A stretch of DNA of 64,000 nucleotides, from the NCBI RefSeq assembly GCF_014873765.1, contig NZ_JADBGG010000009.1:62001-126000 (forward strand), read 5' to 3'. This stretch comes from Desulfomicrobium macestii (GTDB lineage: Bacteria > Desulfobacterota > Desulfovibrionia > Desulfovibrionales > Desulfomicrobiaceae). The notes under the pieces were generated by a model. It did no database searches. It saw only the letters and a program-made list of their open reading frames with translations, and was not told the DNA's origin. This document shows positions 729 through 46,951 of this stretch, piece by piece (the first letter of the stretch is position 1; the number at the start of each line of letters is the position of its first letter). The translations under genes were made by a program, and so were the position numbers.

Positions 729-1391
729 ATGATTCTCTCCGAAAAAATGGCCCTCGCCAAGGCTCGCATGATCGAGGTGCTGGAACGCTTCGGTCCCGGC
801 ACGGCCGTGGGCTGGACCGGAGGCAAGGATTCAACCGTGGTGCTGGCCCTGTGGCGGGAGGTGCTGCGCGAACATGCCGCTGCAGCGCCGGTGCGGGCTC
901 TGAATCTGGATACGGGCTGCAAGTTTCCGGAAGTGTTGGCTTTTCGTGATCGGTTGGCGGGCGAATGGGGCATCGAGCTGCATATCGTGCGGCCCGATGT
1001 CGATCTGGTCCGCTATCCGCTTGCGGTGGATCCGGTGCAATGCTGCGGCGACCTGAAGATCCGTCCCCTGAACGACGCCGTCACGCGGCTCGGGATTCCG
1101 GCCCTGCTGACGGGTGTGCGCGCCGATGAGAACCCGGACCGGGCCGACCGGCCATGGCTGGAGGATCACGGCGATCACGTCCGGGCCCTGCCCATCCTGG
1201 AATGGACGGAGCTTGATGTCTGGACCTTCATGGTGCGCGAGTCCGTCCCGTGGTGCAGCCTCTACGACCAGGGCTACCGCTCCCTGGGCTGCATGCCCTG
1301 CACCGTCCGGTCGGGCCGGGGGGAGCGCTCGGGGCGGGATTCGGCCAAGGAGGAGAGAATGGGGCAGCTCAGGAGTCTGGGGTATTTTTAG
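729..1391 (+). CDS. Phosphoadenosine phosphosulfate reductase family protein (sulfonucleotide reductase-like)
   Basis: 220 residues. It has a PP-loop nucleotide-binding motif TGGKDS (30-35) and a CCGDLKIRPL segment with Cys105-Cys106. A late GCMPCT motif adds Cys188 and Cys191. The CC...CxxC set is the 4Fe-4S ligand pattern of APS reductases. The usual C-terminal catalytic Cys tail (ECGLH-like) is absent: the protein ends RSLGYF. Reduction of APS or PAPS is therefore not proven, and another adenylyl-substrate reaction is possible. Start: ATG 729 is chosen because the family fold begins shortly after it; ATG 690 is an in-frame alternative, and neither has a strong ribosome site. It runs toward the 329-bp repeat array. 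Confidence 0.8.
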   Translation: MILSEKMALAKARMIEVLERFGPGTAVGWTGGKDSTVVLALWREVLREHAAAAPVRALNLDTGCKFPEVLAFRDRLAGEWGIELHIVRPDVDLVRYPLAVDPVQCCGDLKIRPLNDAVTRLGIPALLTGVRADENPDRADRPWLEDHGDHVRALPILEWTELDVWTFMVRESVPWCSLYDQGYRSLGCMPCTVRSGRGERSGRDSAKEERMGQLRSLGYF

Positions 1392-1719
1392 GGTGTGACC
1401 TTCCAAGCCATCTCGATGTCATCCCCGCGCAGGCGGGAATCCATGGCTTTTTCATGAGGGACGGGGTGCGGCAGGACGGCCGCGTCCCGGTTCGCCCCGG
1501 GCGGGGACCGTCGAAACTCCTTCGCGGGCCTCGTACGGCTCAAGCGTTGCGTGGTGATGCGGAAGTCCGCGATAACGCACTGGGCAACGCCTGAGCCAAC
1601 GATGCCTGGCTCAGTCAGACAGTCGACGACCCCGCCCGGGACGAACCGGGACGCTCGGTCTTGTGCGCTGGGCAGGTGAGCGGAAAAGAAACACTCTGAA
1701 GGAGACTGTTGATACTTTA
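1391..1719 (+). repeat. 329-bp tandem repeat unit A1 carrying a double-stem structured module
   Basis: First of 2.4 direct tandem copies with a period of exactly 329 bp. The unit opens with GGGTGTGACC and has an imperfect hairpin of the ATCCCCGCG/CGGGAAT type at 1421-1440. The structured module spans 1482-1654. Its outer 5' arm (1482-1506) pairs with 1630-1654 at 24 of 25 positions. Box 1 is 1515-1534 (AACTCCTTCGCGGGCCTCGT). The inner stem is 1537-1550 with 1584-1597. Box 2 is 1598-1622 and contains CCTGGCTCAGTCAG. The same two boxes recur near 22.5, 22.8 and 46.8 kb with unrelated stem sequences. No credible protein is encoded. Confidence 0.9.
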
Positions 1720-2048
1720 GGGTGTGACCCTTCGAGCCATCTCGATGTCATTCTCGCGCAGGCAGGAATCCATGGCTTTTTCATGAAGGGCGGGGTGCGG
1801 CAGGGCGGCCGCGTCCCGGTTCGCCCCGGGCGGGGACCGTCGAAACTCCTTCGCGGGCCTCGTACGGCTCAAGCGTTGCGTGGTGATGCGGAAGTCCGCG
1901 ATAACGCACTGGGCAACGCCTGAGCCAACGATGCCTGGCTCAGTCAGACAGTCGACGACCCCGCCCGGGACGAACCGGGACGCTCGGTCTTGTGCGCTGG
2001 GCAGGTGAGCGGAAAAGAAACACTCTGAAGGAGACTGTTGATACTTTA
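1720..2048 (+). repeat. 329-bp tandem repeat unit A2
   Basis: Nearly identical second copy. The structured module is at 1811-1983, with box 1 at 1844-1863. The short palindrome near its start (1750-1769) has decayed on both arms compared with the first and third copies. The box and stem region is unchanged, consistent with stronger constraint on the module or with recent copying. Confidence 0.9.
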
Positions 2049-2168
2049 GGGTGTGACCCTTCGAGCCATCTCGATGTCATTCCCGCGCAGGCGGGAATCC
2101 ATGGCTTTTTCATGAGGGACGGGGTGCGGCAGGACGGCCGCGTCCCGGTTCGCCCCGGGCGGGGACCG
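2049..2168 (+). repeat. Truncated repeat unit A3 (5' 120 bp only)
   Basis: Third copy of the unit. It keeps the start and the ATTCCCGCG palindrome (2079-2098), then stops right after the outer 5' arm. Boxes 1 and 2 and the inner stem are missing. The break lies 13 bp before the cooA stop codon, so the array abuts the 3' end of cooA. Confidence 0.85.
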
Positions 2169-2181
2169 GAATGTCCGGGCC

Positions 2182-2883
2182 TCAGTTCTCCAGCGCCGCA
2201 CAGGCCTCGAGCACCGCGATGTCGGGGATGCAGATGACGCCGCGACCCTTGAGCTGGATGACGCCATCCTTGGCCAGGGCGTTGAGCAGTGAAGACACTG
2301 TCTGGCGGGAGGAGCCGATGATGGTCGCCATCTGCTCCGTGTTCAGACCCAGGGAGACCATACCTCCATCCTCGCATTGGCCGCAGTGGCGGCACTCCCG
2401 GCAGCGCGGCAGACGCCTCGCCTCGTAGACCAGAAATTCGATGAGCCGGTTGCGAACGTCCTTGAAGGCCAAGGTGTCGATGACGGAGATGGCATGGGAC
2501 AGAAGATCGCCCAGGACGTGGATCATGGCGGAGTTGAAGCTCGGCATGGAGCCGAGATAGCGCCGGACCTCGGACACGCTGGCAATGAGGATCTCCAGAT
2601 CGTCCAGGGCCTGCACATAGGCCCGGGTGTGGGTCGCGTAGACATCCCCGGCGTCGAGCATGGCCATGGTGAATTCCTTGTCGCGGTAGGCAAGGTACAC
2701 CCGGGCCCGCCCGGAGGTCACGATGAAGATCTGGTCTCCGGCCCTGGGCTCGAAAACCAGGGCCCCCCGTGCAAACTTCCGGGAGCTGAAGAGCTTGCGA
2801 ACGGGAGCCATCTCCGGGCGATGGAGGTCTTGCAGCAGCGTGATTTCGGTCAGGCGCATGGGCGGCTCCGGCTTTTGATCCAT
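2182..2883 (-). CDS. cooA: CO-sensing CRP/FNR family regulator CooA
   Basis: 233 residues. A cyclic-nucleotide-type effector domain (about 15-125) leads into a long dimer helix (about 125-150) and a C-terminal winged helix-turn-helix (about 175-220). His85 in GDVYATHTRAY sits where CooA proteins carry their haem-ligand histidine. The cysteine ligand of the Rhodospirillum protein is replaced by Ala83, as in other non-cysteine CooAs. Between the two domains is an unusual CxxCxxCxxC stretch (Cys161, 164, 167, 170). It is the third gene of the cooS-cooC-cooA cluster, which supports the CO role. Met9 (codon at 2859) has a better ribosome site (GGAG) and may be the true start. It should bind the operator at 5847-5862. 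Confidence 0.85.
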   Translation of the reverse strand: MDQKPEPPMRLTEITLLQDLHRPEMAPVRKLFSSRKFARGALVFEPRAGDQIFIVTSGRARVYLAYRDKEFTMAMLDAGDVYATHTRAYVQALDDLEILIASVSEVRRYLGSMPSFNSAMIHVLGDLLSHAISVIDTLAFKDVRNRLIEFLVYEARRLPRCRECRHCGQCEDGGMVSLGLNTEQMATIIGSSRQTVSSLLNALAKDGVIQLKGRGVICIPDIAVLEACAALEN

Positions 2884-2998
2884 GATAAAGGGGAATCCAG
2901 GCGAAGGATGCGGCCTGGATGCTCCTCGCTTGTCAAGGATTCATGCTGGTTTGCGGTTCATGTGTCCAGCGCCTTGGGCCTGGGCCCGGATGTGCCGT

Positions 2999-3775
2999 TC
3001 AGGTATCTTGAGTCATTGCGGCGAGCAGCCGGGCGCACACTGCATCGACAAGGGACCCGTCGGCCAGATTCAGGACGCTGGCCTGGGTCAGTTGCCTGTC
3101 GACCAGGCTCGGCAGGATCGGCAGATGCACCACATTTTCTGGCAGCCCCGCCATGGCGGGCAACTCGGGTTCACCGATACCGCGATTGACCGCCAGCACC
3201 TGCCGCGCAAGGCCCAGGTCCCCGGCCAGCGCTCCAACCCTGGCCGCCGTTTCGAGGGACCGTCGACTCGGTTCGCTCACCACCACCAGAGCATTGACCC
3301 CGGCCACGGTGCCACGCCCCAGATGTTCCACACCGGCCTCCAGGTCCACCAGCACGAAGTTTTCCTCCTGCAGCACCAGATGGGCCAGCACGGATTTCAG
3401 CAGAGCGTTGGCCGCACAGGCGCAGCCGTCCCCGGCGCCGGTGATGGAGCCCATGGTCAAAAGGCGCTTGCGGCCCGGACGCGGCCCGCCGACATTGTGC
3501 ACCGGCAGATCCACGCTCAGCTCCTCGGGCAGATCGGAAACGTCGGGGTTGAGGCTCAGGTAGCCGCTCCCGATGCGTTCGCGGATCAGATCCTCGCGTG
3601 CGTATAGGGGCACGGGCAGGTCTTCGGCCTCAAGTCCGCAGGCCTGACCCAGGCTGAGCGCTGTGTCCGCGTCCACCAGCAGCACGTCGTGCCCCTGCCT
3701 CGCCAGATAATCCCCCAGCCAGGCGCAGAGCGTGGTCTTGCCCACGCCGCCCTTGCCCGCGAATGCGATTTTCAT
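2999..3775 (-). CDS. cooC: CO dehydrogenase nickel-insertion ATPase CooC
   Basis: 258 residues. It has a deviant Walker A GKGGVGKTT (8-16), DADTAL (35-40) and VDLEAGVEHLGRG, as in the MinD/ArsA-like CooC ATPases that load nickel into the C-cluster of CooS. A C-x-C pair (Cys118, Cys120) matches the metal-binding cysteines of characterised CooC. The start is fixed by AAGGAG ahead of the ATG at 3775; the frame is open further upstream, but that extension lacks family similarity. It lies 70 bp downstream of cooS and upstream of cooA on the same strand, so it is probably co-transcribed. Confidence 0.93.
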   Translation of the reverse strand: MKIAFAGKGGVGKTTLCAWLGDYLARQGHDVLLVDADTALSLGQACGLEAEDLPVPLYAREDLIRERIGSGYLSLNPDVSDLPEELSVDLPVHNVGGPRPGRKRLLTMGSITGAGDGCACAANALLKSVLAHLVLQEENFVLVDLEAGVEHLGRGTVAGVNALVVVSEPSRRSLETAARVGALAGDLGLARQVLAVNRGIGEPELPAMAGLPENVVHLPILPSLVDRQLTQASVLNLADGSLVDAVCARLLAAMTQDT

Positions 3776-3845
3776 GCGATTCTCCTTGAGGATGGGGGAG
3801 CAAGAGCTCCCCCGTTTGCGTGCGTTTGAGACAGTTGCTGCCGTG

Positions 3846-5732
3846 CTAGGCCGACCAGCCAAGCGCCAGGCGCTTGGCCTTGATGCGTTCGTCGATCAGC
3901 TCCGCGGCCTGCAGGGGGCCGGATTCCACGGCGAAGCACGCGCCGAAGACGTCGTCGAGCCCCTTCAGGGCCAGGGACGTGATCATGGAGCTGCCCAGGA
4001 TGTGCGGGGGCAGACCCAGATGGGTGTAGACGCCGCTGGCCACGGCGTAGAGGCCGATGGCCGCCGCCTTCTCGGAGTACCATTCGGGCGCGCTGGCCGC
4101 CACGGGCAGGTCGCTGATGTCCAGGCCTGCGTAGTTGGCCAGCACCGCGCAGAGATGCAGGATGCGGGAGTTGTCCACGCAGCTGCCGACGTGCAGCACC
4201 GGCGGGATGCCCAGCGCCCGGCAGACTTCCGCCAAGCCCGCCCCGGCCTGCGAGGCCGCTTCGGGCTCCAGGAACCCGGCCTTGCCCATGGCTACCGTGG
4301 CGCAGCCCGTGGCCAGTACGAGGATATCGCGCTTCATGAGTTCCCGGGCCAGGTTCACGTGCACATGGTCGTGCTTGAGCTTGGGGTTGTTGCAGCCCAC
4401 GATGCCGACCACGCCGCGCACCTTCCCGGCCTGCAAGGCCTGGATCAGCGGCTCGGGAGTGCCGCCCAGGGCGCCCAGGATGGCCTCGTTGGAGAAGCCC
4501 GAGGTGATGGACATGGGCTTCGACGGAATCTCGACCTTGGCCGGATCGCGCCGGGTGAAGGCCTCCACGGCCATGAGCACGGCCTCGCGCGCCTTTTCGC
4601 GGGCGTTGTTGTAGTGGAATTCCATGTGGATGCCGCCGGGGAACTTGGCCTTGTCCGAGGTGGAGACGAATTTGGTGTGGTAGCAGCCGGCCACGTTGAC
4701 CAGGCTCGGCATGATGCACTGGTAGTCCACGATGACCATCTCCACCGCGCCGGTGACGATGGCCAGCTCGGTCATGAGGTGGTTGCCGGCCATGGGCACG
4801 CCCTGGCGCATGAGCAGTTCGTTGCCCGTGCAGCACAGGCCCGCGATGTTGATGCCGGCCGCGCCAGCCTCTTTGGCCTTGGCCAGGATTTCGGGCTCGC
4901 GCGCCGCGGCCAGGATCATCTCCGAGACGATGGGGCTGTGGCCGTGGACCAGGATGTTGACCTGATCCTCCTTGAGGACGCCCAGGTTGACCATGGATTT
5001 GACGGGCTTGGGCGTGCCGAAGATGATGTCCGAGACCTCGGTGGCGATCATGGACCCGCCCCAGCCGTCGGCCAGGGCCGTGCGGCTGGCATGCAGGCAG
5101 ATGGAGACCGGGTCGCAGTCCACGCCCATGTGCGTGCGGTGCAGCATCTCCACGCATTCACGGTCGATGCCGCGTGGCGAACATCCGGTACGCGCCCAGA
5201 TGTCCCTGCGTTTCTGCGGGGCGCGGCCGCTGAAGGCCACGTTATTGGAGCGGCAGCCGTAGTCCTCGAAGAAGAGGTCGGCCAGGGCCTTGGCCCGTTC
5301 GCGCACCGAGAGCCCTTCCACCTCGATGCCCAGTTCCGTACAGATGCGTTCGAGCTTGGCCTCGTCGCGGATGCCGTAGTCCGTGGTCTTGCCGTCACCG
5401 ATGGCGGCCAGCGTCTCCAGCAGGTCGCGCCCGTGGTCTGAGTGCGCTGCCGCCCCGGCGGCCACGAAACGGCCGAAGTTGCGGGCCACGGTCAGATCGC
5501 CGTCGGCGCCGCACACGCCGTATTTCTTCTTGGGGCCACCGCCCGGGTTGATGCGGCAGGGGCCCATGACGCATTTGCTGCAGGTCAGGCCCTGTTCGCA
5601 GAAGGTGCAGTGCGGCGTCTGGTCTTTCAGCCGGTCCCAGATGAGGTTCACCCCCTCGCGTCCGGCCTTGGCGATCATTTTCTGAGCGTCTTCCCAGGGG
5701 CTCAAATCCTGGATTTCCCTTTCCTTGGCCAT
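3846..5732 (-). CDS. cooS: Anaerobic carbon monoxide dehydrogenase catalytic subunit CooS
   Basis: 628 residues, the usual size for the monofunctional Ni-Fe CO dehydrogenase (CO + H2O to CO2 + 2H+ + 2e-). The N-terminal cysteines 42, 45, 51, 54, 59 and 74 fit the B and D iron-sulfur clusters. Later motifs fit the C-cluster: LVHGHSP, AGLCCTGNE, VGCNNPK, ATGCATVAMGKAG and HVGSCVDNSR. The start follows AAGGAGG. No cooF ferredoxin, CO-linked hydrogenase or acetyl-CoA synthase gene lies next to it, so electrons must go to a carrier encoded elsewhere. The upstream region has a CooA-type palindrome, suggesting CO induction. Confidence 0.97.
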   Translation of the reverse strand: MAKEREIQDLSPWEDAQKMIAKAGREGVNLIWDRLKDQTPHCTFCEQGLTCSKCVMGPCRINPGGGPKKKYGVCGADGDLTVARNFGRFVAAGAAAHSDHGRDLLETLAAIGDGKTTDYGIRDEAKLERICTELGIEVEGLSVRERAKALADLFFEDYGCRSNNVAFSGRAPQKRRDIWARTGCSPRGIDRECVEMLHRTHMGVDCDPVSICLHASRTALADGWGGSMIATEVSDIIFGTPKPVKSMVNLGVLKEDQVNILVHGHSPIVSEMILAAAREPEILAKAKEAGAAGINIAGLCCTGNELLMRQGVPMAGNHLMTELAIVTGAVEMVIVDYQCIMPSLVNVAGCYHTKFVSTSDKAKFPGGIHMEFHYNNAREKAREAVLMAVEAFTRRDPAKVEIPSKPMSITSGFSNEAILGALGGTPEPLIQALQAGKVRGVVGIVGCNNPKLKHDHVHVNLARELMKRDILVLATGCATVAMGKAGFLEPEAASQAGAGLAEVCRALGIPPVLHVGSCVDNSRILHLCAVLANYAGLDISDLPVAASAPEWYSEKAAAIGLYAVASGVYTHLGLPPHILGSSMITSLALKGLDDVFGACFAVESGPLQAAELIDERIKAKRLALGWSA

Positions 5733-5846
5733 GCTTGTCCTCCTTGTGGTTTCGCGGCCTTCGCCGGACTTTGGGTGATGGAATCGGTCATGCCATCCTT
5801 TGGCGATTCACTTGGGGCATGCTAGACCATTGCACGATTTTCTGTC

Positions 5847-5862
5847 TGTCGCCTAGCTGACA
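5847..5862. promoter_or_regulatory. Putative CooA operator upstream of cooS
   Basis: The 16-bp sequence TGTCGCCTAGCTGACA fits the inverted-repeat form TGTCR-N6-YGACA described for CooA sites. It is the only such site I saw in the 196-bp cooS-ispG intergenic region and is centred about 122 bp upstream of the cooS ATG. A weak -10-like TAGCAT lies toward cooS at about 5818-5823 on the minus strand. Function is inferred from the match and from cooA being in the same cluster. Confidence 0.65.
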
Positions 5863-5928
5863 GCGGGGGGATATTTTCGGATTTCCCGTCCTTGGCTTTG
5901 AGAGTCAAATTCATTACGCTCCCCGGCC

Positions 5929-7068
5929 ATGACAACCCCAGAACCCTCCTTGCATCATTGTCCGGAACATTTTGTGGATACGCCCATTCCGGCCCCGCGC
6001 GCCAGGACCCGCAGCCTGTTCGTGGGCGACGTGGGCATCGGCGGCGACAATCCCGTACGGGTGCAGTCCATGACCAACACGGACACCCGGGACGTGGACA
6101 CGACCCTGGCCCAGATTTCGGCCCTGGCCTCGGCCGGGTGCGAGATCGTGCGTTTGGCCGTTCTGGATCTTGAAGCATCCATGGCGCTGAAAAAAATCTG
6201 CGCCGCCACGCCCGTGCCGCTCATCGCGGACATCCACTTCGACTCCCGCCTGGCCGTGCAGGCCGTGGAGGCGGGGGTGCGGGGCCTGCGCATCAATCCC
6301 GGCAATATCGGCGGCGCGGACAAGGTCGATCGCGTGGTGGACGCGGCCCGCGCGGCCGGAGTGCCCATCCGCATCGGCGTGAACAGCGGCTCCGTGGACA
6401 AGGATCTGCTGCGTAAATACGGTGGGCCCACTCCGGCAGCCATGGTCGAGAGTGCCCTTGAGCATGTGCGCCTGCTCGAAGAGAGAGGATTCGACGCTAT
6501 CAAAATTTCACTCAAATCATCAAGTGTGCTGGGCACGGTGGCTGCATATCGTCTCATGGCCAAAACCGTGGACTATCCGCTGCACATCGGCGTGACCGAG
6601 GCCGGGACGGCCATGCGCGGGGCGGTCAAGTCGTCGGTGGGTCTTGGGATTCTGCTGGCCGAGGGCATCGGCGACACGCTTCGGGTGTCGCTCACCGCCG
6701 ATCCTGTGGAAGAGATGCTGGTGGCCTGGGAGATCCTGCGCGCCCTGGGCCTGCGGGCCAGGGGCCCGGAGATCGTGTCCTGCCCGACCTGCGGCCGCAC
6801 CGAGATCGGGCTCATGGAGTTGGCCGCCGCCGTCGAGGACCGTCTGCGCGGAGTGGAGGAGGTCTTTACCGTTGCGGTCATGGGCTGCGTGGTCAACGGC
6901 CCCGGCGAGGCCCGCGAGGCCGACATCGGCGTGGCCGGAGGGCGGGACTCGGGCCTTATCTTCCGCAAGGGCGAGGTCGTGCGCAAGGTGAAGGGCAGGG
7001 CGGAACTGCTGCCCGCCTTCATGGAGGAACTGGAGAAATTTCTGGATGAGCGGCGGGCCGGAGCATGA
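5929..7068 (+). CDS. ispG: 4-hydroxy-3-methylbut-2-en-1-yl diphosphate synthase (flavodoxin) IspG
   Basis: 379 residues. It catalyses the 4Fe-4S-dependent reductive ring opening of MEcPP to HMBPP in the MEP isoprenoid pathway. An N-terminal TIM barrel (VQSMTNTDT, RINPGNIGG, GVNSGSVD) is followed by the cluster domain with ligands Cys285, Cys288 and Cys320, plus Glu327 in GCVVNGPGE. It is divergent from cooS. No clear ribosome site precedes the ATG, so the exact N terminus is less certain. dxs and ispA of the same route lie at 13.8-16.6 kb. Confidence 0.97.
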   Translation: MTTPEPSLHHCPEHFVDTPIPAPRARTRSLFVGDVGIGGDNPVRVQSMTNTDTRDVDTTLAQISALASAGCEIVRLAVLDLEASMALKKICAATPVPLIADIHFDSRLAVQAVEAGVRGLRINPGNIGGADKVDRVVDAARAAGVPIRIGVNSGSVDKDLLRKYGGPTPAAMVESALEHVRLLEERGFDAIKISLKSSSVLGTVAAYRLMAKTVDYPLHIGVTEAGTAMRGAVKSSVGLGILLAEGIGDTLRVSLTADPVEEMLVAWEILRALGLRARGPEIVSCPTCGRTEIGLMELAAAVEDRLRGVEEVFTVAVMGCVVNGPGEAREADIGVAGGRDSGLIFRKGEVVRKVKGRAELLPAFMEELEKFLDERRAGA

Positions 7069-7122
7069 ACCCGTGCCCGCTTATGCCGACTGGCGCAACT
7101 GCCTGCTTTTCGGAGGTGAGAT

Positions 7123-8214: not shown

Positions 8215-8274
8215 GAACTGAACCGGCCGGACGAAAGTTGTCAGGCGGGCGCTTTTGCAGTTTTCGTGAGCAGC

Positions 8275-8307
8275 TTCACTTTTGCGACGGGCTGTCGCAA
8301 ACGTGAA
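8275..8307 (+). promoter_or_regulatory. Inverted repeat in the proS leader region
   Basis: TTTGCGAC (8281-8288) and GTCGCAAA (8294-8301) form a perfect 8-bp inverted repeat around GGGCT. TTCAC (8275-8279) and GTGAA (8303-8307) extend it with small asymmetric gaps. It is followed by an AT-rich stretch and no T-run, so it looks more like an operator or a leader hairpin than a terminator. It lies 60 bp before proS. The ligand or factor is unknown. Confidence 0.4.
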
Positions 8308-8366
8308 CGAGAAATATATTTTTCAACATATTAATAAGTTATATCCATAGCGAGGAGACATCCCCC

Positions 8367-10109
8367 ATGCTGTTCAGCAAATTCTACGTTCCCACCCTGA
8401 AGGAAACCCCGGCCGAGGCCGAGGTCATCAGCCACAAGCTTCTGCTGCGCGCGGGCATGATCCGCAAGCTGACCAGCGGCATCTACACCTACATGCCGCT
8501 GGGCCTTCGCGCCATCAACAAGGTCGCAAACATCGTGCGCGAGGAGATGAACCGGGCCGGGGCCCAGGAGATCTCCATGCCCATGGTGCAGCCGGCCGAC
8601 CTGTGGCAGGAGAGCGGGCGCTGGGATTTCTACGGCAAGGAGCTCCTGCGCCTGAAAGACCGTAACGGCCGCGACTACTGCCTCGGACCCACGCACGAGG
8701 AGGTCATCACCGACCTGGTCCGCGGCGAGGTCCGCTCCTACCGGCAGCTGCCCATCAACCTGTACCAGATCCAGACCAAGTTTCGCGACGAGATCCGTCC
8801 GCGCTTCGGCCTCATGCGCGGCCGCGAGTTCATCATGAAGGACGCCTACTCCTTCGACAAGGACGACGAGGGCGTGAACGCGAGCTACCAGGCCATGTAC
8901 GACGCCTACGAGCGCATCTTCACCCGCCTGGGCCTGGAGTTCCGCGCCGTCAGCGCCGACTCGGGGGCCATCGGCGGCAGTTTTTCCCATGAGTTCATGG
9001 TCCTGGCCGACACGGGCGAGGACACCCTGGCCGTGTGCACGTCCTGTTCCTACGCCGCCAACCTCGAGAAGGCCGAAACGAAGCCCCAGCCCATGTGCAC
9101 GCAGACCTGCGCCGCACATGAGCAGGTGGCCACTCCGGGCAAGCACACGGTGGAAGACGTGGCCGGATTCCTGGCCGTGGCCACGACCCAGGTCATGAAG
9201 ACCCTGCTCTTCGACGTGGACGGTAAATCCGTGGCCGTGCTGCTGCGCGGCGACCGCGAGGTCAACGACGTGAAGCTGAAAAACCTTCTCGGCGCGACCA
9301 GCGTCGAGCTGGCCACCCCGGAACAGGTCGTGGCCTGGACCGGCGCACCCGTGGGTTTTGCCGGACCTGTGGGACTGAAAGTCGACGCCATTTACGCGGA
9401 TCACGAGATCGCGGCGGGCACGGATTTTGTCTGCGGGGCCAACGCCGCCGACGCGCACCTGATCCATGTCGACCCGCGCCGCGACATCACCCTGTCCACG
9501 GACGCCGCGCCACTGGGTTACGCGGACCTGCGCTCCATCACCCTGGACGACCCCTGCCCGGCCTGCGGCGGTCCCCTGACCATGCCCAAGGGCATCGAGG
9601 TCGGCCATGTCTTCAAGCTCGGCACCAAGTATTCCAAGTCCATGAACGCCACCTTCCTGGACGAGAACGGCAAGGAGCAGGTCCTCATCATGGGCTGCTA
9701 CGGCATCGGCGTGAGCCGCGTGGTGGCCGCCAGCATCGAGCAGAACAACGACGCGAACGGCATGATCTTCCCGCCGTCCATCGCCCCCTTCGAGGTCAAC
9801 GTCCTGGCCATGTCCACCAAGGACGAGAAAGTCATGACCATGGGCCGCGAAATCCACGACTGGCTGGAGGGCCAGGGCATCGACACCCTGTTCGACGACC
9901 GCGATGAACGCCCGGGCGTGAAGTTCAACGAGGCCGACCTGCTGGGCTCCCCCATGCAGATCGTCATCGGCGGCAAGGGCCTGGAGCGGGGCGTGCTCGA
10001 GGCCAAGAACCGCAAGACCGGCGAGAAGAGGGAACTGCCCGTGGCGGACTGGAGGAATGCGGTTCTTGAGTGGCGCAAGGAAGTGATGAAGGAGTGGGGA
10101 CTGGCATAA
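8367..10109 (+). CDS. proS: Prolyl-tRNA synthetase
   Basis: 580 residues, a class II synthetase of the long bacterial type. Motif 1 lies around the [16 protein letters not shown] region and motif 2 contains [17 protein letters not shown]. An inserted editing domain that clears mischarged Ala-tRNA occupies roughly residues 230-390. Motif 3 has GCYGIGVSR, followed by a C-terminal anticodon-binding domain ([19 protein letters not shown]). GAGGAG precedes the ATG. It follows the glycohydrolase-like gene after 150 bp that contains the inverted repeat at 8275-8307. Confidence 0.97.
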
Positions 10110-22319: not shown

Positions 22320-22356
22320 ATGGTTTTTTTTGAATATACGTCAGGATGTTTTTTAC

Positions 22357-22398
22357 AAAAAGTCGTCATTGCCTTGAAGAAGGGGATGACGACTTTTT
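22357..22398 (+). terminator. Terminator of the rhodanese gene
   Basis: AAAGTCGTCAT and ATGACGACTTT form an 11-bp perfect stem, with a 16-nt loop and a T7 run after it. It separates the rhodanese transcript from the repeats that follow. Confidence 0.88.
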
Positions 22399-22434
22399 TT
22401 CTGGAAGAAGAACATGAAAGATGGATTGTTGCGT

Positions 22435-22650
22435 GCGGTACGCGGTCCGGGGTCGTCATGGCCTTGAGGCCCGCCGGAACTCCTTCGCTGGCCTCGTAGA
22501 GTTGAACCGTTGCGTGCAGGGCGGAAAATTGCGGCGGTACGTCCGGCAACGGTTCAACAAACGATGCCTGGCTCAGTCAGACAGCCGACGCGCCTCAAGA
22601 CCATGACGCCCCCGGACCTTGAGATGCTGACGGGAAATGGTGTTGATGCG
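22435..22650 (+). repeat. Structured repeat B1 (double stem with conserved boxes)
   Basis: Outer arms 22444-22470 and 22592-22618 pair almost fully. Box 1 (22478-22497) reads AACTCCTTCGCTGGCCTCGT. The inner stem (22501-22513 with 22546-22558, GTTGAACCGTTGC) is perfect over 13 bp. Box 2 (22559-22584) contains CCTGGCTCAGTCAG. Boxes match those of the 1.4-2.0 kb array; the stems do not. The short open frame running through it also occurs in the other B copy only because the DNA is duplicated. Confidence 0.9.
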
Positions 22651-22700: not shown

Positions 22701-22918
22701 GCGGTACGCGGTCCGGGGTCGTCATGGCCTTGAGGCCCGCCGGAACTCCTTCGCTGGCCTCGTAGAGTTGAACCGTTGCTTGCAGGATGAAAAATTGCGG
22801 CGGCACGTCCGGCAACGATTCAACAAACGATGCCTGGCTCAGTCAGACAGCCGACGCGCCCCAAGACGATGACGCCCCGGACCTTGAGGTGGTGGCGGGA
22901 AATGGTGTTGATGCGGTC
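22701..22918 (+). repeat. Structured repeat B2
   Basis: Second copy, 266 bp downstream of B1, including the shared tail CGGGAAATGGTGTTGATGCG. Box 1 is at 22744-22763, inner arms at 22767-22779 and 22812-22824, and outer arms at 22710-22736 and about 22856-22883. The inner stem has one C-A mismatch and the outer stem several, so this copy looks slightly decayed. Confidence 0.88.
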
Positions 22919-22954: not shown

Positions 22955-22998
22955 AGACCTCACTTGAAAACACGTTTTTTTCAAGTGAGGTCTTTTTT
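22955..22998 (+). terminator. Plus-strand terminator after repeats B1-B2
   Basis: AGACCTCACTTGAAAA pairs with TTTTCAAGTGAGGTCT (16 bp, perfect), followed by six T. The T-run is on the plus strand, yet no plus-strand protein gene lies between this and the previous terminator at 22357-22398. Only the two structured repeats do. Confidence 0.85.
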
Positions 22999-37696: not shown

Positions 37697-38022
37697 GCAG
37701 ATCCTCCTGACAATGTTTCTGGTGTTTACCTTCCACGAATTTCTTGGCCGAGGCGCAATTGCAGCCAACGGCCCGACGGGAGAACGAAATCAACCTGCGC
37801 TGACTCAGCAGGCCGAGCCTCTTCGCGTCCAATGAGTTTCACGCTGATGCGTCTGGTCAGGACCGGACGCAGGTCAAAGCCGAGGCCGGAAAAAGGCAAC
37901 ATACCTTGCATTCCGGATGACTCTGATTTTTGCGAGAAAGCTATGGGGGTTTTCGATACGTTTTCCGATTTTTTCATGTTCAACGCTATGCATGAAAAAA
38001 AGAAGAATATGCAAGGAGATCT

Positions 38023-38883: not shown

Positions 38884-39143
38884 TTATAAAAAATCCTGTG
38901 CAAAATTGTGGGTAATAGCGTTTCTGTGCTTTTTTCCAAACATCTTATTTAGAGAATATATGTCTAGGTTGTATTCTGTCATGAAAGACATAATACGCGC
39001 TTCCCATAGGGGGCAAACTCACATTTTTGCACAAGATACAGCCCTTGCTCCGGGAGGGCAAGGGTCCGAGTTTAAGTGGCGCAGGATGTCTTTTTCAGCT
39101 ACTCGTCATTTGGGCATGCAACGATTTCCCAATGGAGGCTGAT

Positions 39144-40370: not shown

Positions 40371-42421
40371 AACCCTACGCGCGCATATCGCTCAAAAACA
40401 AGATTTTCATCTCCATCCTGGCCGTCATCCTCTTGATCAGCGTGACCATCGCGCTCCTGGCCCGCTGGATTCTCATCTCCGGATTGACCAAGGAGCTTGA
40501 GCTGCGCGGCATCGCCGTGGCCCACTCCATTGCCGAGCGCGGCGGCGGGTTTGTCCTCGACAAGAACTACTCGGAGCTCCTGAGTCTCATCTTCGAGGAG
40601 GCCCGATTGCGGGAGCGCCAGCACATGATCAATTACATATATGTGCTCGATCGCAGTGAAAAGGTCCTCTCCCACACCTTCACCGTGCCTTTTCCCGGTC
40701 CCTTGAGCACCGCCAACCCTGTCCTCGAGGGGAACATGCACAGCGTGCGCCTTGTCGCGGTGGGCGCGCAGACCTCCTACGACATCGCGGTGTCCATGAA
40801 CGAGGGCCTGTACCGCATCGGAACGGTGCACGTGGGATTGAGCAAGGAACACATCGACAAGCTGGTGGCCAAGCTGCGCTTCATGTTCCTGGGATTCATC
40901 TCGGCGGTCATCATCATTATCTTCTATGTTAGCCATCGTATTTCGCGATATATAACCAGCCCGATTTCGCGCCTGACGAACATTTCGGACGAGCTCAGCC
41001 GAGGGAATTTCGATGTGCATCTGGATCTTGGCGAGGGCCTGGACTGGGCGGTGACCAACTGTCCGGCCTACAAGGACACCAACATGCCCTGCTGGCATTT
41101 TGACGAACAGGGACGCAAGTCCCGCAAGTCCGAGGGCAAGACCGGTCAGGTCTGCTCGACCTGCCTCTTCTACCGCAAGCGCGGAGGAGACGAGGTCATC
41201 CAGCTGGCCGATTCGTTCATGAGCATGGTCTGGTCCATCCGGCTCTACCGCAAGCGCCTCCAGGAATCGGAGATGAAATACCGGTCCCTGTTCGACTCGG
41301 GTCCCGATCCCATTTTTGTCGTGGACTGCAACACGGACCTGATCCTCGACGCCAACCCCAGGGCCGAGGAACTCTACGAATATTCCAAGGGCGAATTGCT
41401 GGGCGTGTCCTTCATGGTGCTCGGTCACGACCAGGTTCGGGAATGTCTGACCTCTCTCAATGAGGCGAACACGAACAGCGGCTGCGTCTATTATCCCAAG
41501 GTGCTCCATTACAAGAAGGGCGAGCGGCCCTTTTACGTCAACATGCACGCCTGTCCCATCAGTTACGGCGGCACCCATGCCATGATCGTGGCCGTGACCG
41601 ACATCACCGAGATGATGGAGAAGGACGCGCAGCTCGTGCAGGCGGCCAAGATGAAGACCCTTGGCGAAATGAGCGCGGGCATCGCCCACGAGATCAACCA
41701 GCCGCTCAACGCCATCAAGATGGGCAGCGAGTATCTCAATCTGCTCATTGAGCAGAACCGCGAGGTGACCGAAACCCAGATCCGGGACATGGCTACGGAG
41801 ATCAGCCAGCAGGTGGACCGGGCCACGGACATCATCAACAATCTGCGCGCCTTCGGCAAAAAGTCGGGCCTGGTCATGGAACGGGTGGACATGAACGAGC
41901 CCATCCGCGGCGTGCTGTCCATCATCGGCCGTCAGTTCTCCATCCAGCGCATCACCATCCGCCTGGAACTGGGCGAGAATCTGCCGTACATCAAGGGACA
42001 CAACAACCGGCTGCAGCAGGTCTTTTTCAATCTGCTCAACAACGCGCGGGACGCCATTCAGGAAAAAATGGAGAGTGAACCCGGCATGTGGGGAGACATC
42101 CTGGTGCGCACCTACGCCATGGAAGGCCGGGTTTTCGCATCCTTCGCCGACAACGGCCCCGGCATAGCTGATTCGGTGCGCAACAAGATCTTCGAGCCCT
42201 TTTTCACCACCAAACAGACCGGAAAGGGCATGGGGCTCGGCCTGGCCATAACATACGGGATTGTTCGCGATTATGGCGGAACCATTACTATTGACAGTCA
42301 ACCGGGTCAGGGGACAACATTCATTTTGAGTTTCCCGAGCGCCGAGAGCCATCCGGCGCTTGAGCACAATGCAGGCCGAGTGGACAAAAAATCGGCACAA
42401 CCCAGCGAGATATCCCTATGA
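40367..42421 (+). CDS. Membrane sensor histidine kinase with HAMP, Cys4 motif and PAS
   Basis: 684 residues. TM1 about 13-35, periplasmic domain about 36-170, TM2 about 172-188, and HAMP about 189-225. Next comes a cysteine motif: Cys232 and Cys242 ([15 protein letters not shown]) with Cys263 and Cys266 (CSTC), a layout known in deltaproteobacterial sensors and suggestive of a metal or redox centre. PAS about 303-420. HisKA has [16 protein letters not shown], and the ATPase [17 protein letters not shown] and [11 protein letters not shown]. It likely reads the binding lipoprotein encoded just before it and signals to the receiver-STAS protein encoded just after it (4-bp overlaps on both sides). 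Confidence 0.93.
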
Positions 42422-43131
42422 CGCAAGAAAAAATCCTGGTCATCGACGACGAGAAGGCGACCCTGAAAATGTTCCGGCTTTTTCTGGACGTGTACGGATT
42501 CGACATCCTCACGGCCGAATCCGGAGAAGAGGGGCTGGAAGTTTTCGACAGGGAAAAACCCGACATCGTCCTGACCGACATCAAGATGCCCGGCATGGAC
42601 GGAATCGAGGTTCTGCAGCAGATCAAGAAACGGTCGCCCGCCACGGAGGTCATCGTCATCACCGGACATGGCGACATGGACCTGGCCATTCAGGCCCTGA
42701 ATCTGGATGCCGCCGATTTCATAAACAAGCCCATCCAGCGGCAGAGCCTTGAACAGGGCCTGGCACGGGCCAGGGAGCGGCTCAAGCTGGCCAAGAGTCG
42801 GCAGAACGAAGTCAGCGTCAGCCGGCAGGGCCGGGCGCTGGTCATTGAGATTCAGGGCAGCGTCAGTTCCCACAGCGAACCGTATCTGCGCGAAGCCTAC
42901 TCCAAGGCCCAGGAAGCGGGGGTGCAGCGCATCGTGCTGCATTTCGATCCCAACACCTCCGTGAACGGGGCAGGCATCGCCATTTTGACCCAGCTGGTGC
43001 TGGAGAGCGAAAAGGACGGAGTCGAGATTGTCATGGCCGGTCTTTCCGAGAATTTTCGCAAGGTTTTCGGTATAGTGGGGCTGACCCGCATGGTTCAGAT
43101 TTTCGACGGTCTGGATGAGGCCTGTACCTAG
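42418..43131 (+). CDS. Response regulator with C-terminal STAS domain
   Basis: 237 residues. The receiver (1-125) has ILVIDDE, the phospho-Asp in LTDIKMPGMDG, VITGHGD and NKPI. The C-terminal domain (about 135-237) is STAS-like (VIEIQGSVSSHSEPYLREA, NTSVNGAGIAILTQL) like anti-sigma-factor antagonists. The output is therefore protein-protein switching, not DNA binding. Ser/Thr at NTSVNGAG could be the phosphorylatable position of the antagonist type. No partner kinase or sigma factor gene is in this operon. Confidence 0.9.
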   Translation: MTQEKILVIDDEKATLKMFRLFLDVYGFDILTAESGEEGLEVFDREKPDIVLTDIKMPGMDGIEVLQQIKKRSPATEVIVITGHGDMDLAIQALNLDAADFINKPIQRQSLEQGLARARERLKLAKSRQNEVSVSRQGRALVIEIQGSVSSHSEPYLREAYSKAQEAGVQRIVLHFDPNTSVNGAGIAILTQLVLESEKDGVEIVMAGLSENFRKVFGIVGLTRMVQIFDGLDEACT

Positions 43132-43164
43132 GTTTTTTTTTCGGCCCGGGGCCAAGGAGTGTTC

Positions 43165-43707
43165 ATGACGGTTTTCACTCGTATCGCATTTTGTCTCTTT
43201 CTCTTTTGCGTGGCCCAGCCTGTCATGGCCGCGCCGCCCGCCACCGGCGACGCCATGCCCGAACTGATTCTGCCCGTTCCCTTCGATCCGGCCGGACAGG
43301 AGATGCTCGGCGTGCAGGGGAAAACGACCTTCACTCTTGCGGATCTTGGCGCCGATCTCATTTTCATAGAGGTCATAGGCGTGTATTGTCCGCAGTGCGT
43401 CAAGCAGTCCCCGGGTTTCAAGACCCTTTTCAACCGCCTGAACAGGGGCAAGCTCAAGGGGCGAGTGGCCATGTTCGGGCTGGCCGCCGGAGGAACGGAC
43501 GCCGAGGTCAAGCAGTTGCTGGGCACCGGCCAGTACCTTTTTCCGGTCCTGAGCGACCCCGACTACGTGCTGCACAAGGTGCTGGGCGAGCCGCTCACTC
43601 CCTACACAATCGTCTGCAGGCCGGACGGGAGCGTGGTTTACGACCACCTCGGCGTGGTTCAGGACATTGACGCGCTCTACCAGCACATAAAGACACTGCT
43701 CGACTGA
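43165..43707 (+). CDS. Exported thioredoxin-fold (redoxin/TlpA-like) protein
   Basis: 180 residues from ATG 43165 (AAGGAG 5 bp upstream). A signal peptide ends at AQPVMAA. The redoxin domain has the active-site YCPQC and LFPVLSDPDYVLHKVLG. It should be a periplasmic thiol-disulfide or peroxide-type reductase. It lies 33 bp after the receiver-STAS gene and 14 bp before the GAF-rhodanese gene. Confidence 0.9.
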   Translation: MTVFTRIAFCLFLFCVAQPVMAAPPATGDAMPELILPVPFDPAGQEMLGVQGKTTFTLADLGADLIFIEVIGVYCPQCVKQSPGFKTLFNRLNRGKLKGRVAMFGLAAGGTDAEVKQLLGTGQYLFPVLSDPDYVLHKVLGEPLTPYTIVCRPDGSVVYDHLGVVQDIDALYQHIKTLLD

Positions 43708-43721
43708 TCGCGGAGCGGCAG

Positions 43722-45335
43722 ATGACGCCTCAAACCGAAAGCGATGCCGATCGCGCCAGATACCAGTTTCAGATTCTGTTCGATACGGCCGCGGAGCTGA
43801 GCGGGGCGCGTTATCCGCACAGGATACTGGAAGCTTTTCTGCTCTCGGCCCAGGGTGGAATTGGCGCCCGGGGCGGTTTTGCGGCCGTTCTGGGACAGGA
43901 CGGGTTTCAGCTCATGACCCGCTCCAGCCTCTCCAAAAGCCTGACTCCGGAATATGCGCGGGTGCTGCGCGAACATCTGGACGCCCTCGGCGAAGAGCGC
44001 AAATCCTCTTTTTTCGTGCCCTCCCTGCAGGGCGAACTCTGCCCCGGAAAATGCGAGTTGCTCCTGGTCTGCCCTCTCGATGACGGTAGGGATGGAGTGC
44101 TCGGTCTGGAAGAAAGCCTGGCAGGCCGCCCCTATGACGAAAACGACAGGCAGCTTGTGGCGGGCCTTGGCACCCTGTTCCAGACCAGCCTTCGGTTCTC
44201 GCTCTATGCCACCCGTGTCGAACTGCTCAACGCCGAGTTGACCAAGCAAAACGACACCCTCGACCGCCAGATTTATCATCTGAGCGCCTTGCGCGACCTC
44301 TCTGGAGAAATTCTGCGTGTGGACATGGCCGAGGTCATGTCCACCTTTCTTTTGACCCTGCTCGGGCATTTTGCCCGGCCCCAGGGCCTCCTCGTGCTGC
44401 ACGACCGCACCTCGGGACAAATCCATGAAATTTCCAGCGGCCTGCCGGTAAAGCCCGAACTCACCGACCAGAAGGTGGAGCGGCTGTTTTTCCTGTGTCT
44501 GGCCGGTGTCCGCGAAAAGCATCTGCAACCCCTGCAGGTCGAACCTGTCGAGGACATGAGCGGCGCTGCGGGGATCGAGCTGGGTTTTACGCCCGACCGG
44601 GGCTACCTCTTCATGCTGCGCGAGAACATGTACGGGGTGCTGCTTCTGGGGCAGAGTCTCGGCCCGATGGTTCCCGCCGAGGACGGCCTGTTGCAGGCCT
44701 TTGTTTCGCAGGGAGTCTTGCATCTCAAGAATGCCGATTCCTTCAGAACCATCATGGCCCTGAACGATGATCTGGCCAGGCAGAACGAGGAGCTGCGCCG
44801 CACCATCGACGAACTGACGCGGGCCAGGGACCAAATCAGCATGCTGGAGGCCGCGGGCAGACGCATCGCCGGCATCGTGCACAGCAAGGCGTTGAGCCTG
44901 ACCCGGGTACGTCTGGTCGATTTCTTTCTCATCATCGCGCTGAGTTTGGGCATGGCGCTGGCGTTCAACGCGCAAAACCCGCGCGGGATACCCCTGATCG
45001 AAGCTCCCGGGCCCGAGGTTCCATTGGTGACCCTGGAGCAGGCGTTGGCGCTCATCGAAAACGAGGATGCGCTTCTTGTCGATGCCCGCCCGCGCGAGTT
45101 CTTTGAGCGCGAGCATGCGCAAAGAGCGGTCAATGTTCCGGCTCAGCTTTTCGATCTGGTCTACATGATGCAAATGACCGCCGAGGACCCCGAGCGGCCC
45201 ATCGTTGTTTTCGGGCGCAGCGTGAGCCGCCGCTACGACCTGACCGTGGCCGCTAAATTTCTGGGCAGGGATCATGAGCGGGTCTATATCGTCAAGGACG
45301 TCCCGCCCCTGGCCCTGGACGGAGGCATGCCATGA
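43722..45335 (+). CDS. GAF-GAF-coiled coil-TM-rhodanese-like membrane protein
   Basis: 537 residues. There are two GAF-like domains (about 15-165 and 185-345) and a coiled coil (about 345-385). A single membrane helix (about 403-420, FFLIIALSLGMALAF) and a C-terminal rhodanese-like domain (about 435-535) follow. The rhodanese has LLVDARPREFFEREHAQRAV, but the active-site Cys is missing (IVVFGRSVSRRYD), so it is likely a binding rather than catalytic domain. By topology the GAFs face the cytoplasm and the rhodanese the periplasm, next to the exported redoxin. I know no characterised protein with this layout. Confidence 0.85.
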   Translation: MTPQTESDADRARYQFQILFDTAAELSGARYPHRILEAFLLSAQGGIGARGGFAAVLGQDGFQLMTRSSLSKSLTPEYARVLREHLDALGEERKSSFFVPSLQGELCPGKCELLLVCPLDDGRDGVLGLEESLAGRPYDENDRQLVAGLGTLFQTSLRFSLYATRVELLNAELTKQNDTLDRQIYHLSALRDLSGEILRVDMAEVMSTFLLTLLGHFARPQGLLVLHDRTSGQIHEISSGLPVKPELTDQKVERLFFLCLAGVREKHLQPLQVEPVEDMSGAAGIELGFTPDRGYLFMLRENMYGVLLLGQSLGPMVPAEDGLLQAFVSQGVLHLKNADSFRTIMALNDDLARQNEELRRTIDELTRARDQISMLEAAGRRIAGIVHSKALSLTRVRLVDFFLIIALSLGMALAFNAQNPRGIPLIEAPGPEVPLVTLEQALALIENEDALLVDARPREFFEREHAQRAVNVPAQLFDLVYMMQMTAEDPERPIVVFGRSVSRRYDLTVAAKFLGRDHERVYIVKDVPPLALDGGMP

Positions 45336-45811
45336 TCCCGCGCCTGAAGCTCATCCTGACCCATCCTCTTCTCGCCCTGATCCTGCGCCTCTATCTGGCC
45401 GGGATCTTCATCTACGCCAGTCTGCACAAGATCAATTTTCCGGCCGAGTTCGCGGACAACATCGCGGGCTATCTCATCGTCCCGTATTGGCTGATCAATC
45501 CGTTGGCCGTGTTCATGCCCTGGCTGGAACTGGTCTGCGGCCTCTTTCTTCTGGCCGGCGTCAGGGTACGGGCGGCGACTTTGCTGATCGGCGGGATGCT
45601 GGCCATGTTCACCGTGGCGGTGCTGGTGGCCCTGATTCAGGATACGCCCATCGGTTGCGGCTGCTTCCAGACCGTGGGCGAACCCATTTCCTGGTGGACT
45701 GTGCTCAGGGATCTGGCCTGGCTGGCCATGGCCGCCCATGTTTATTTTTATGACCGGCTGATCCATCTGGACCGGCTCTTCATGCTCAAACCGGAGGAAC
45801 TTGGGCTGTGA
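45332..45811 (+). CDS. MauE/DoxX family membrane protein
   Basis: 159 residues, four predicted membrane helices (about 12-32, 50-72, 78-100, 120-140). The IGCGCFQ motif is typical of MauE/DoxX redox-associated proteins, which are thought to supply or move thiol/disulfide equivalents across the membrane. It overlaps the GAF-rhodanese gene by 4 bp and the lipoprotein gene by 4 bp. Confidence 0.9.
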   Translation: MIPRLKLILTHPLLALILRLYLAGIFIYASLHKINFPAEFADNIAGYLIVPYWLINPLAVFMPWLELVCGLFLLAGVRVRAATLLIGGMLAMFTVAVLVALIQDTPIGCGCFQTVGEPISWWTVLRDLAWLAMAAHVYFYDRLIHLDRLFMLKPEELGL

Positions 45812-46122
45812 TCAAATTATTGCCGCTTCTGCTTCTGCTGCTGTGTCTGTCATGTTCCTCCCGGCCCGATCTTGCCGGACGCTACGAGGCGTCGCACACG
45901 GGCCCAAGCGGGCCGGTGAACGCGGTCATGACGCTGGCCGAGGACGGCAGCGGCAAATGGGAGATCGAGGGGGAGGTCCTGCCGTTTTCATGGGTCGTGC
46001 GCGAGGGTGCGCTCAACGTGCACACCCGTGACGGGGCTGTGGTCGAAGGCGTGATCGAGGGCGTGAATGTCCGTCTGGACGTGCCGGGAGTCGGCGCGCT
46101 TGATTTCGTTCGCGGGAAATAG
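45808..46122 (+). CDS. Small lipoprotein
   Basis: 104 residues from GTG 45808 (GTGA overlap with the previous stop). The signal ends in a lipobox, LLCLSC. The rest is beta-rich (GRYEASHTGPSGPVNAVMTL, WEIEGEVLPFSW) and resembles small calycin-like lipoproteins. Last gene of the seven-gene operon; convergent with mobA, 6 bp away. Function unknown. Confidence 0.82.
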   Translation: MIKLLPLLLLLLCLSCSSRPDLAGRYEASHTGPSGPVNAVMTLAEDGSGKWEIEGEVLPFSWVVREGALNVHTRDGAVVEGVIEGVNVRLDVPGVGALDFVRGK

Positions 46123-46128
46123 CTTTTT

Positions 46129-46698
46129 CTAGCGGCCTTGCAGCTGCTCCAGATCGGTCGGGTAGTTGACGTTGAAGAAGATGCGCCTTTCGTCTTCCGT
46201 GTAGGTCACCGTGTGGCGCAGTTCGGCCGGGATGAGCCGACTGAGCTTGAAGAGCCCCTGGGACACGCCTGCCTCCAGCAAGGGCAGGGCCTGCGGTTCG
46301 TAGATCGCGACCAGGTTCTCGATGAATCCCGAATCCTTGAGTTGCCAGGTGGTCAGCACGCAATGCCGCGGGCGTTCTTCCCGCGCGGCCATGAGTCTTT
46401 CGATGATGCCGTCCTCCATGAAAGGCAGGTCGCAGGCGAGGACGAAGATTGGCTCCTTGAATTTGCGCAGCGCGGTGATGATGCCGCCGGCGGGACCGAT
46501 GCGCTCCGTCTCGTCGGTGATGACGGGCCAGGGTCCGCCCACGTCGAGGGTCTGCCGGCAGGAGACATAGACCTTGTCGAGATGGCGTTGCAACAGCGTG
46601 GCCGTGCGCGTGAGCAGGGTCTGTCCCTCGTGCACGACACGCGTCTTGTCTTGTCCGAGCCGGGATGATTTTCCTCCGGCAAGCACCAATCCAATCAT
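46129..46698 (-). CDS. mobA: Molybdenum cofactor guanylyltransferase
   Basis: 189 residues. Adds GMP to Mo-molybdopterin to form MGD. LVLAGGKSSRLGQDK is the nucleotide-binding signature, ACDLPFME the metal-binding Asp region, and FFNVNYPTDLE the C-terminal motif. The start at ATG 46698 is set by the signature. It supports the formate dehydrogenase at 34-37 kb and lies downstream of fdhE on the same strand, with a structured repeat between. Confidence 0.93.
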   Translation of the reverse strand: MIGLVLAGGKSSRLGQDKTRVVHEGQTLLTRTATLLQRHLDKVYVSCRQTLDVGGPWPVITDETERIGPAGGIITALRKFKEPIFVLACDLPFMEDGIIERLMAAREERPRHCVLTTWQLKDSGFIENLVAIYEPQALPLLEAGVSQGLFKLSRLIPAELRHTVTYTEDERRIFFNVNYPTDLEQLQGR

Positions 46699-46778
46699 GA
46701 TTTTCCCTGTGCCGCGATCCGCAGCCGAAAGGCAGCGGGCACGGTATTTTTGGTTTGCAGGCGTCTCAGTGCGGCCGC

Positions 46779-46951
46779 ATTCCGGGACGATCCGGGGCGC
46801 GGCCGCCAAAACTCCTTCTCCGGCCTCGTGCTGTTTTTCCGTCGTTGCTGCCAAACAGATGTCTGCGCTCCGGGCGAGGGGCGACGGAAAAACAAACGAT
46901 TCCTGGCTCAGTCAGGCAGTTGCCGCCCCCACCCCGGATCGACCCGGAACG
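46779..46951 (+). repeat. Structured repeat C (same boxes, different stems)
   Basis: Box 1 (46810-46829) reads AACTCCTTCTCCGGCCTCGT. Box 2 (46895-46919) contains CCTGGCTCAGTCAG. The inner stem TGTTTTTCCGTCG (46832-46844) pairs perfectly with 46882-46894. The outer arms (about 46780-46798 and 46932-46950) pair over about 18 bp. Neither stem resembles those of the A or B copies. It lies in the 437-bp gap between fdhE and mobA. Confidence 0.9.

Follow-up and report, generated by a model that had tools for sequence, protein, structure and literature searches.

A dispersed two-box repeat of Desulfomicrobium with a strand-specific mismatch bias and a core found in transposon frames of related bacteria

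A 64,000-nucleotide stretch of the Desulfomicrobium macestii genome (contig NZ_JADBGG010000009.1, positions 62,001 to 126,000; hereafter the window) carries five copies of a palindromic element, ~190 bp long and built around two conserved boxes. They are members of a large group of small hairpins of sulfate-reducing bacteria, apparently of transposon origin. We computed directly the spread of this repeat family, the covariation in its stems, its conservation in place, a strand bias in the mismatches of its outer stem, the transposon frames that enclose its core in relatives, and an orientation linked to replication. These results suggest an undescribed structured RNA, or a folded single strand, of which a genome has dozens of copies. 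The reading that we favor, at roughly even chances, is that the Desulfomicrobium element is a domesticated repeat derived from a miniature inverted-repeat transposable element (MITE), the complementary strand of which works as a structured RNA. Throughout, the forward strand of the element is the one folded in the original prediction, which was made from the window alone and read the plus strand; the complementary strand is its opposite.

All five modules of the original prediction, with their two boxes, were recovered at three places, A, B, and C. Module A1 is laid out, in order, as outer stem, box 1, inner stem, box 2, and outer stem. The box 1 pattern AACTCCYTCNCNGGCCTCGT matched 5/5 modules with zero mismatches, and the 14-base box 2 core CCTGGCTCAGTCAG had five exact occurrences in the window; at two mismatches, the mean over 100 shuffles was 0.65 and the highest count 3. 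As the original prediction had proposed, a covariance model (R1) was built, from 32 copies in the organism's own genome (alignment A3). On the window it returned exactly five forward matches, which are the five modules, and no sixth; two weak reverse-strand matches, at B1 and B2, are echoes of the palindrome. The features are listed below, the strand given for a module being the one predicted to stay foldable.

1482..1654, minus strand: module A1 (model match 1498-1639, 127.3 bits; fold z -8.12)
1811..1983, minus strand: module A2, tandem duplicate of A1 (model match 1827-1968, 127.3 bits)
22444..22618, minus strand: module B1 (model match 22461-22602, 154.4 bits; fold z -5.89)
22710..22883, minus strand: module B2, tandem copy of B1 (model match 22727-22868, 144.5 bits)
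46779..46951, minus strand: module C (model match 46793-46937, 113.6 bits; fold z -5.05)
1515..1534 (A1), 1844-1863, 22478-22497, 22744-22763, and 46810-46829, plus-strand reading: box 1
1605..1618 (A1), 1934-1947, 22567-22580, 22833-22846, and 46902-46915, plus-strand reading: box 2 core, exact matches
2140..2168, no strand assigned: truncated third unit of the A array, the left outer arm only, without boxes, its letters those of the left arm of A1; no covariance-model match

The tandem spacing is 329 bp for A1/A2 and 266 bp for B1/B2; as these pairs are tandem duplicates, the window holds three independent loci. The stems had been called unrelated: they do pair with changed sequence, but the duplicates, together with the CGTYG present in all three inner stems (A, B, and C), make "unrelated" too strong a word. 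That the element has no known name was borne out. An Rfam 15 scan of the window at the gathering score reported three tRNAs only, none of them on the modules, and in nine relatives a scan at E<=0.5 gave two matches, both below the gathering score: MIR841, a plant microRNA precursor, lay on an element and reflects the long hairpin (34.6 bits, gathering score 200), and IRES_Bip scored 16.8 bits against 40. No paper found describes the family, judged from titles and the beginnings of abstracts, and searches with box or motif strings led to unrelated papers; the text of a survey of stem-loop families (PMC2267715) contains neither Desulfo nor Geobacter.

Searching genome by genome with the model, we detected the element at E<=1e-5 in 24 of 61 genomes, the organism's own, with at least 51 matches, being counted; at most 52 candidates per genome were scored, and the larger counts are lower bounds. 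Six Desulfomicrobium genomes yielded 41 to 52 matches each (the upper counts being at least that number), five yielded none in the same search, and two Desulfonatronum genomes yielded 71 and 75. A pattern scan retrieved 45 stretches, from Desulfomicrobium, Desulfonatronum, Desulfonatronospira, Desulfonatronaceae, and an unclassified metagenome-assembled genome. The exact pattern had no match in viral contigs, and the element none in plasmids. A reduced form in which the boxes almost touch (AACTCGCTNNNCTCARACAGTT, one mismatch) was found in 9/297 genomes of the phylum, with as many as 20 copies; at the 30 loci examined it lies mostly between the arms of other inverted repeats. One alignment of copies comprised the best 107 of 149 aligned rows, or 79 once near-identical rows were removed.

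Tandem duplicates of the element are frequent. In genome G000, the arrays L047 (contig 8, ~9087-10014) and L024-L026 (contig 1) have later copies without the left part: what is repeated is either just box 2 with the inner and outer right arms, or the right side together with the inner hairpin. Close pairs on opposite strands, head-to-head or tail-to-tail, were also seen, at 188863/189104 and 1906251/1906500 in genome G009 and at 1160448/1160837 in genome G015.

The fold itself was examined in the window and in alignment A3. Each of the three modules folded (A1, B1, and C; z scores above) was more stable than all of 200 shuffles. Across the 32 copies, 95.1% of pair cells were paired against a shuffled mean of 78.5%, both-sided changes were seen in 26/37 pairs against 17.2, and the covariation score was 0.464 against 0.162 in shuffles and 0.06-0.15 with slid partners; sliding the partner by 1-3 columns lowered pairing to 25-41%. 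The real alignment stood above all shuffles on 4/5 measures, and the fifth, further pair types, was equaled by 16/500 shuffles. The compensatory pairing that the original prediction took as the mark of a selected fold is thus present in genome-wide copies. The predicted internal loop between the boxes is indeed conserved, but two covarying pairs join box 1 and box 2 (columns 26-124 and 27-123), so the boxes are partly paired with each other. The loop might be read as a kink-turn or as tandem G.A pairs; two base-pair registers fit, and the pairs that would decide between them are nearly invariant.

Conservation at orthologous positions provides a line of evidence separate from covariation. Using both flanks, we sorted 181 Desulfomicrobium copies from ten genomes into 43 clusters of orthologous positions with 144 members; the flanks gave 232 pairs of copies shared between species, and one comparison drew on 161 of the 167 reciprocal ortholog pairs. 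Identity within a cluster is 94-96% in the boxes, 83-89% over the 40 bp flanking them on each side, and 82.5% in the middle, and gaps stay below 3%. It drops to 60-69%, with 12-17% gaps, at a distance of 40-80 bp, and climbs again further out; on the left side, the stretch 160-280 bp away reaches 81-85% and is mostly coding. Set against the adjacent 40-80 bp, the high identity in place indicates that most copies are old, fixed, and better conserved than the neighboring intergenic DNA.

Mismatches in the outer stem reveal which strand is maintained. On the forward strand the mismatch events numbered 140 A.C, 28 G.T, and 74 of other types, an event being counted once per cluster, pair, and state, and the aligner treating all mismatches alike. 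Over the 181 Desulfomicrobium copies the A.C:G.T ratio was 340:20 (260:19 without one position, four pairs from the boxes, that gives 80 of the 340 A.C mismatches), and in Desulfonatronum, with 71 of 72 copies used, it was 73:16. Read from the opposite strand, an A.C mismatch becomes a G.T wobble; the A.C excess on the forward strand therefore indicates that the complementary strand is kept foldable, changes that still pair there being tolerated. Selection favors the fold of the complement, and on this point the original prediction chose the wrong strand. A role as a cruciform or in double-stranded form predicts no asymmetry between A.C and G.T and is disfavored by the 140:28 ratio.

The flanks carry no such substitution bias (139:155, 141:136, 507:456, and 464:474). 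Copies that oppose the replication trend described below show 17:0 (12 of the 15 such loci were readable), and the sign of the bias is the same in every gene context, which makes mutation linked to replication or to neighboring transcription an unlikely cause; flank spectra and against-trend copies together disfavor mutation bias as the source of the A.C excess. Two further controls say little: in a small tRNA set (5 distinct tRNAs) we counted 55 Watson-Crick pairs, 5 G.T, and no A.C, and in 27 transposon frames the outermost terminal repeats, with 24 A.C and 13 G.T, are mildly biased with the same sign. By RNA energies the complementary strand folds better in 152/181 Desulfomicrobium and 58/72 Desulfonatronum copies. 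Taken together, the asymmetry points to a single strand, without separating RNA from single-stranded DNA, and with the conservation in place it supports selection independently of covariation.

The element is also oriented with respect to replication. In the single-contig genomes G015 and G009, GC skew at 20 points each changes sign near 1.5 and 3.5 Mb, a few of the points being noisy. We placed the origin at the 3.5 Mb change, the GC-skew minimum, near which lies a second DnaA-domain gene (3507586-3508038 in G015, 3446471-3446923 in G009); a stronger dnaA match sits at the record start in both genomes, ~0.4 Mb off. The forward strand runs in the leading sense at 32/37 loci in G015 (p = 7e-6) and 31/41 in G009 (p = 0.0015; 52 of 54 matches used, two reverse-strand echoes omitted), and sampled genes, called with a simple codon-usage script, do so in 99/188 and 95/194 cases; the two genomes have many loci in common, and the two tests are not independent. 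The prevailing orientation places the less stable, forward strand on the lagging-strand template.

Copies in relatives make the MITE-like nature of the family visible, which goes beyond what the original prediction saw. The family is short, non-coding, and multi-copy, and in related copies the core lies within terminal inverted repeats bordered by target duplications, in three frames with duplications of 8, 6, or 10 bp. The first frame, GTAACTAYTCAGC with 8 bp, was recognized 27 times among 72 Desulfonatronum-type copies; 16/27 target duplications agree at 7 or 8 of 8 positions, 15 of them perfectly (shuffled 0), and in Desulfonatronospira the 8-bp duplication is present in 3/4. The second, CCTGAATCCGTGAAA with 6 bp, was recognized in genome G027 at 5 of the 6 loci given, with 5/5 duplications at >=5/6 and 4 perfect (shuffled 0.39). 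The third, CAGGGCAWTTTTGTTCTCAC with 10 bp, has 4/7 at >=9/10 and 3 perfect (shuffled 0.14). Outer stems are alike inside one frame and different from frame to frame. Judging by the shared core sequence, the copies in the window probably descend from MITEs like these.

Neither of two candidate mobilizers was supported. IS66, prompted by the GTAA ends and 8-bp duplications, gave no PF03050 match in genomes G024, G029, G041, and G058, all of which carry the GTAACT frame (the first frame), and among the positions listed for GTAACTAYTCAGC-type ends in G024 and G041 there is no obvious autonomous element. For a RAYT/REP origin, PF01797 (Y1_Tnp) genes are present in 28/41 genomes, though none adjoins the element in 13 stretches examined: these have no copy of box 2, and a single degenerate match resembling box 1. 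Two further observations concern the frames. In a CAGGGCA frame (L100, L104, L106, and L229), AGTTAC or GGTTAC stands just inside the right terminal repeat; these letters resemble the GTAACT frame at its right end, as though one of the frames had captured the other. In G024, inverted pairs of GTAACTAYTCAGC ends lie ~140-176 bp apart (for example contig 1 292845-293018 and contig 15 58423-58588), against ~220 bp for hairpin-bearing elements, and are possibly related MITEs without the full core.

From these observations a model for the Desulfomicrobium element can be proposed. Its complementary strand would form a long hairpin consisting of an outer stem, an internal loop made of the two boxes, an inner stem, and a variable tip. 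The hairpin may act as RNA that a protein binds or cuts, and would then be comparable with Correia/NEMIS of Neisseria, ERIC, and YPAL of Yersinia; the conserved internal loop may be what the protein or nuclease recognizes. Copies with the more stable strand on the lagging-strand template may tend to be lost, which would give rise to the orientation bias.

Correia/NEMIS elements are likewise short, dispersed, inverted-repeat MITEs with a target duplication and a conserved core, most locations are common to several strains, and their transcripts fold into an RNA hairpin that RNase III binds or cuts (PMC2649163, PMC2229807). They are described from Neisseria only, with another size and other ends, a distinction drawn from their description; the passages on them contain no strand-specific wobble test and no replication-linked orientation. 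In contrast to Correia/NEMIS, the core described here is found again in three transposon frames, each with ends of its own. ERIC (IRU) and YPAL (RU-2) are described as intergenic palindromes of ~127 and 168 bp with target duplications, and YPAL as adjoining dyad symmetry and as being produced jointly with upstream genes (PMC2229807); their hosts are enterobacteria and Yersinia, YPAL duplications range from 3 to 26 bp, and their sequences were compared with ours through Rfam only. BRE, the beta-proteobacterial repeat element of Bordetella, is a dispersed and tandem repeat of ~90 bp, mostly intergenic and tied to the small RNAs bprJ1/J2, but its orientation is reported not to follow that of the replication fork, and it has other hosts (PMC3110155; compared by description only). 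The Chunjie MITE of Geobacter uraniireducens, 235 bp long with dozens of copies in a sulfur/iron-reducing host, is alike by description (PMC10969869).

Several results weigh against a domesticated, MITE-derived RNA. The complementary strand is more stable with DNA energies too (161/181 and 67/72 copies), so folding energy does not single out RNA. The inner stem is only weakly asymmetric, at 24:17 events and at 74:46 and 28:17 over copies. The prediction that against-trend copies would fold less strongly found no support (n=12 versus 70, p 0.06-0.32). At 21/65 loci no adjacent gene reads along the folded strand, and no block within 120 bp of the boxes matches the element's conservation in the 43 clusters, so that a promoter or a source of read-through is not evident; a consensus scan for a promoter at locus B found none. 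Lastly, an offset scan of 151 pooled copies, mostly from Desulfomicrobium, found at most 7 agreeing per offset and no clear target duplication for window-type copies. The Desulfomicrobium copies may be old and their target duplications decayed.

The original prediction had offered structured RNA and folded DNA as alternatives, and both still stand; that a folded single-stranded DNA, as a substrate of transposition, recombination, or replication, is the functional molecule strikes us as rather unlikely. G.T is better tolerated than A.C in DNA as well, and together with the DNA energies, the dependence of orientation on replication, and the travel of the core in transposons this speaks for such a molecule. 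Yet it is the forward strand that, in the prevailing orientation, lies on the lagging-strand template, the one most often single-stranded; the mismatch bias keeps its sign in copies lying the opposite way; and the 13 stretches show no Y1-type transposase genes adjoining the element.

Gene context bears on another explanation, a gene-end element, namely a 3' untranslated region (3'-UTR) hairpin that serves neighboring messages as terminator or decay barrier, like BIME/REP. After collapsing, 69 Desulfomicrobium loci comprised 26 between convergent genes, 36 between co-directional genes, 3 between divergent genes, and 4 without a called neighbor, and 1/69 overlaps a predicted coding sequence; so few divergent sites among the 65 loci with both neighbors would suit a role at gene ends, as would the placement of A and B between convergent genes and of C behind an fdhE-like gene. 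Placement at 3' ends may, though, reflect merely harmless insertion, and Desulfonatronum copies avoid divergent sites less (8/62). The favored strand, moreover, is the same whatever the direction of the neighbors, and a third or so of loci, the 21 mentioned above, have no gene along it; we therefore consider a gene-end role improbable. The narrower version, a 3'-UTR element of a gene on the complementary strand, looked favorable in 78 uncollapsed copies and fails at the 69 collapsed loci, where genes point at the element about equally from both sides and the strand bias is constant in all contexts.

By the names that can be read from translations, locus A lies between convergent PAPS (phosphoadenosine phosphosulfate)-reductase-like and Crp-like genes, locus B between convergent rhodanese-like and pseudouridine-synthase-like genes, and locus C behind the fdhE-like gene, with a mobA-like gene next to it on the other side. 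A plus-strand terminator-like hairpin with T's follows B1/B2 at 22955-22993, before the 3' end of the convergent gene, and another T-ended hairpin precedes them near 22355-22400. A second, common palindrome (GTCATTCCCGCGNAGGCGGGAATCCATG type) is often close to the element; in the window it occurs at 1418-1446, 1747-1777, 2076-2104, and 47053-47080, and in the A array it belongs to the 329-bp unit.

Mutation without function could also leave paired stems, if template switching in palindromes copies one arm onto the other. Within ortholog clusters, double changes comprise 62 of transversion and 43 of transition type, and 71/105 are without a visible intermediate. Template switching in DNA, reported to create and maintain hairpins (PMC8794818), may supply such changes, so covariation alone is no proof of selection. 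But doubly changed pairs are mostly isolated (72/88 runs are single pairs) and not copied in blocks, and mutation alone predicts neither the asymmetry between A.C and G.T nor unpaired boxes at 94-96% identity; as a full account it has little to recommend it. Ordinary MITE relics without function in place, their conservation only apparent and due to recent insertion or gene conversion, would suit the frames with target duplications in relatives and the frequent tandem duplicates, but are weakened by 232 between-species orthologous pairs, conservation above that of adjacent DNA, and a strand asymmetry in place, and we hold this explanation to be equally improbable.

More tentatively, and with the chances on the lower side, the element may represent a new class of structured RNA with up to ~75 copies per genome: a module that at least three non-autonomous transposon frames, unrelated in their ends, have in common, every copy of it staying foldable in place on one of the strands, and replication setting the orientation across the chromosome. 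The usual view of MITE hairpins in bacteria is one of decaying DNA with occasional effects on neighbors. Here, copies at fixed positions evolve more slowly than adjacent intergenic DNA, and a mismatch signature names the foldable strand; counting A.C against G.T in orthologous palindromes is a simple, general test for which strand of a palindromic repeat matters. With the same core present in transposons with different ends, the question of whether such a repeat has become a domesticated RNA gene becomes testable.

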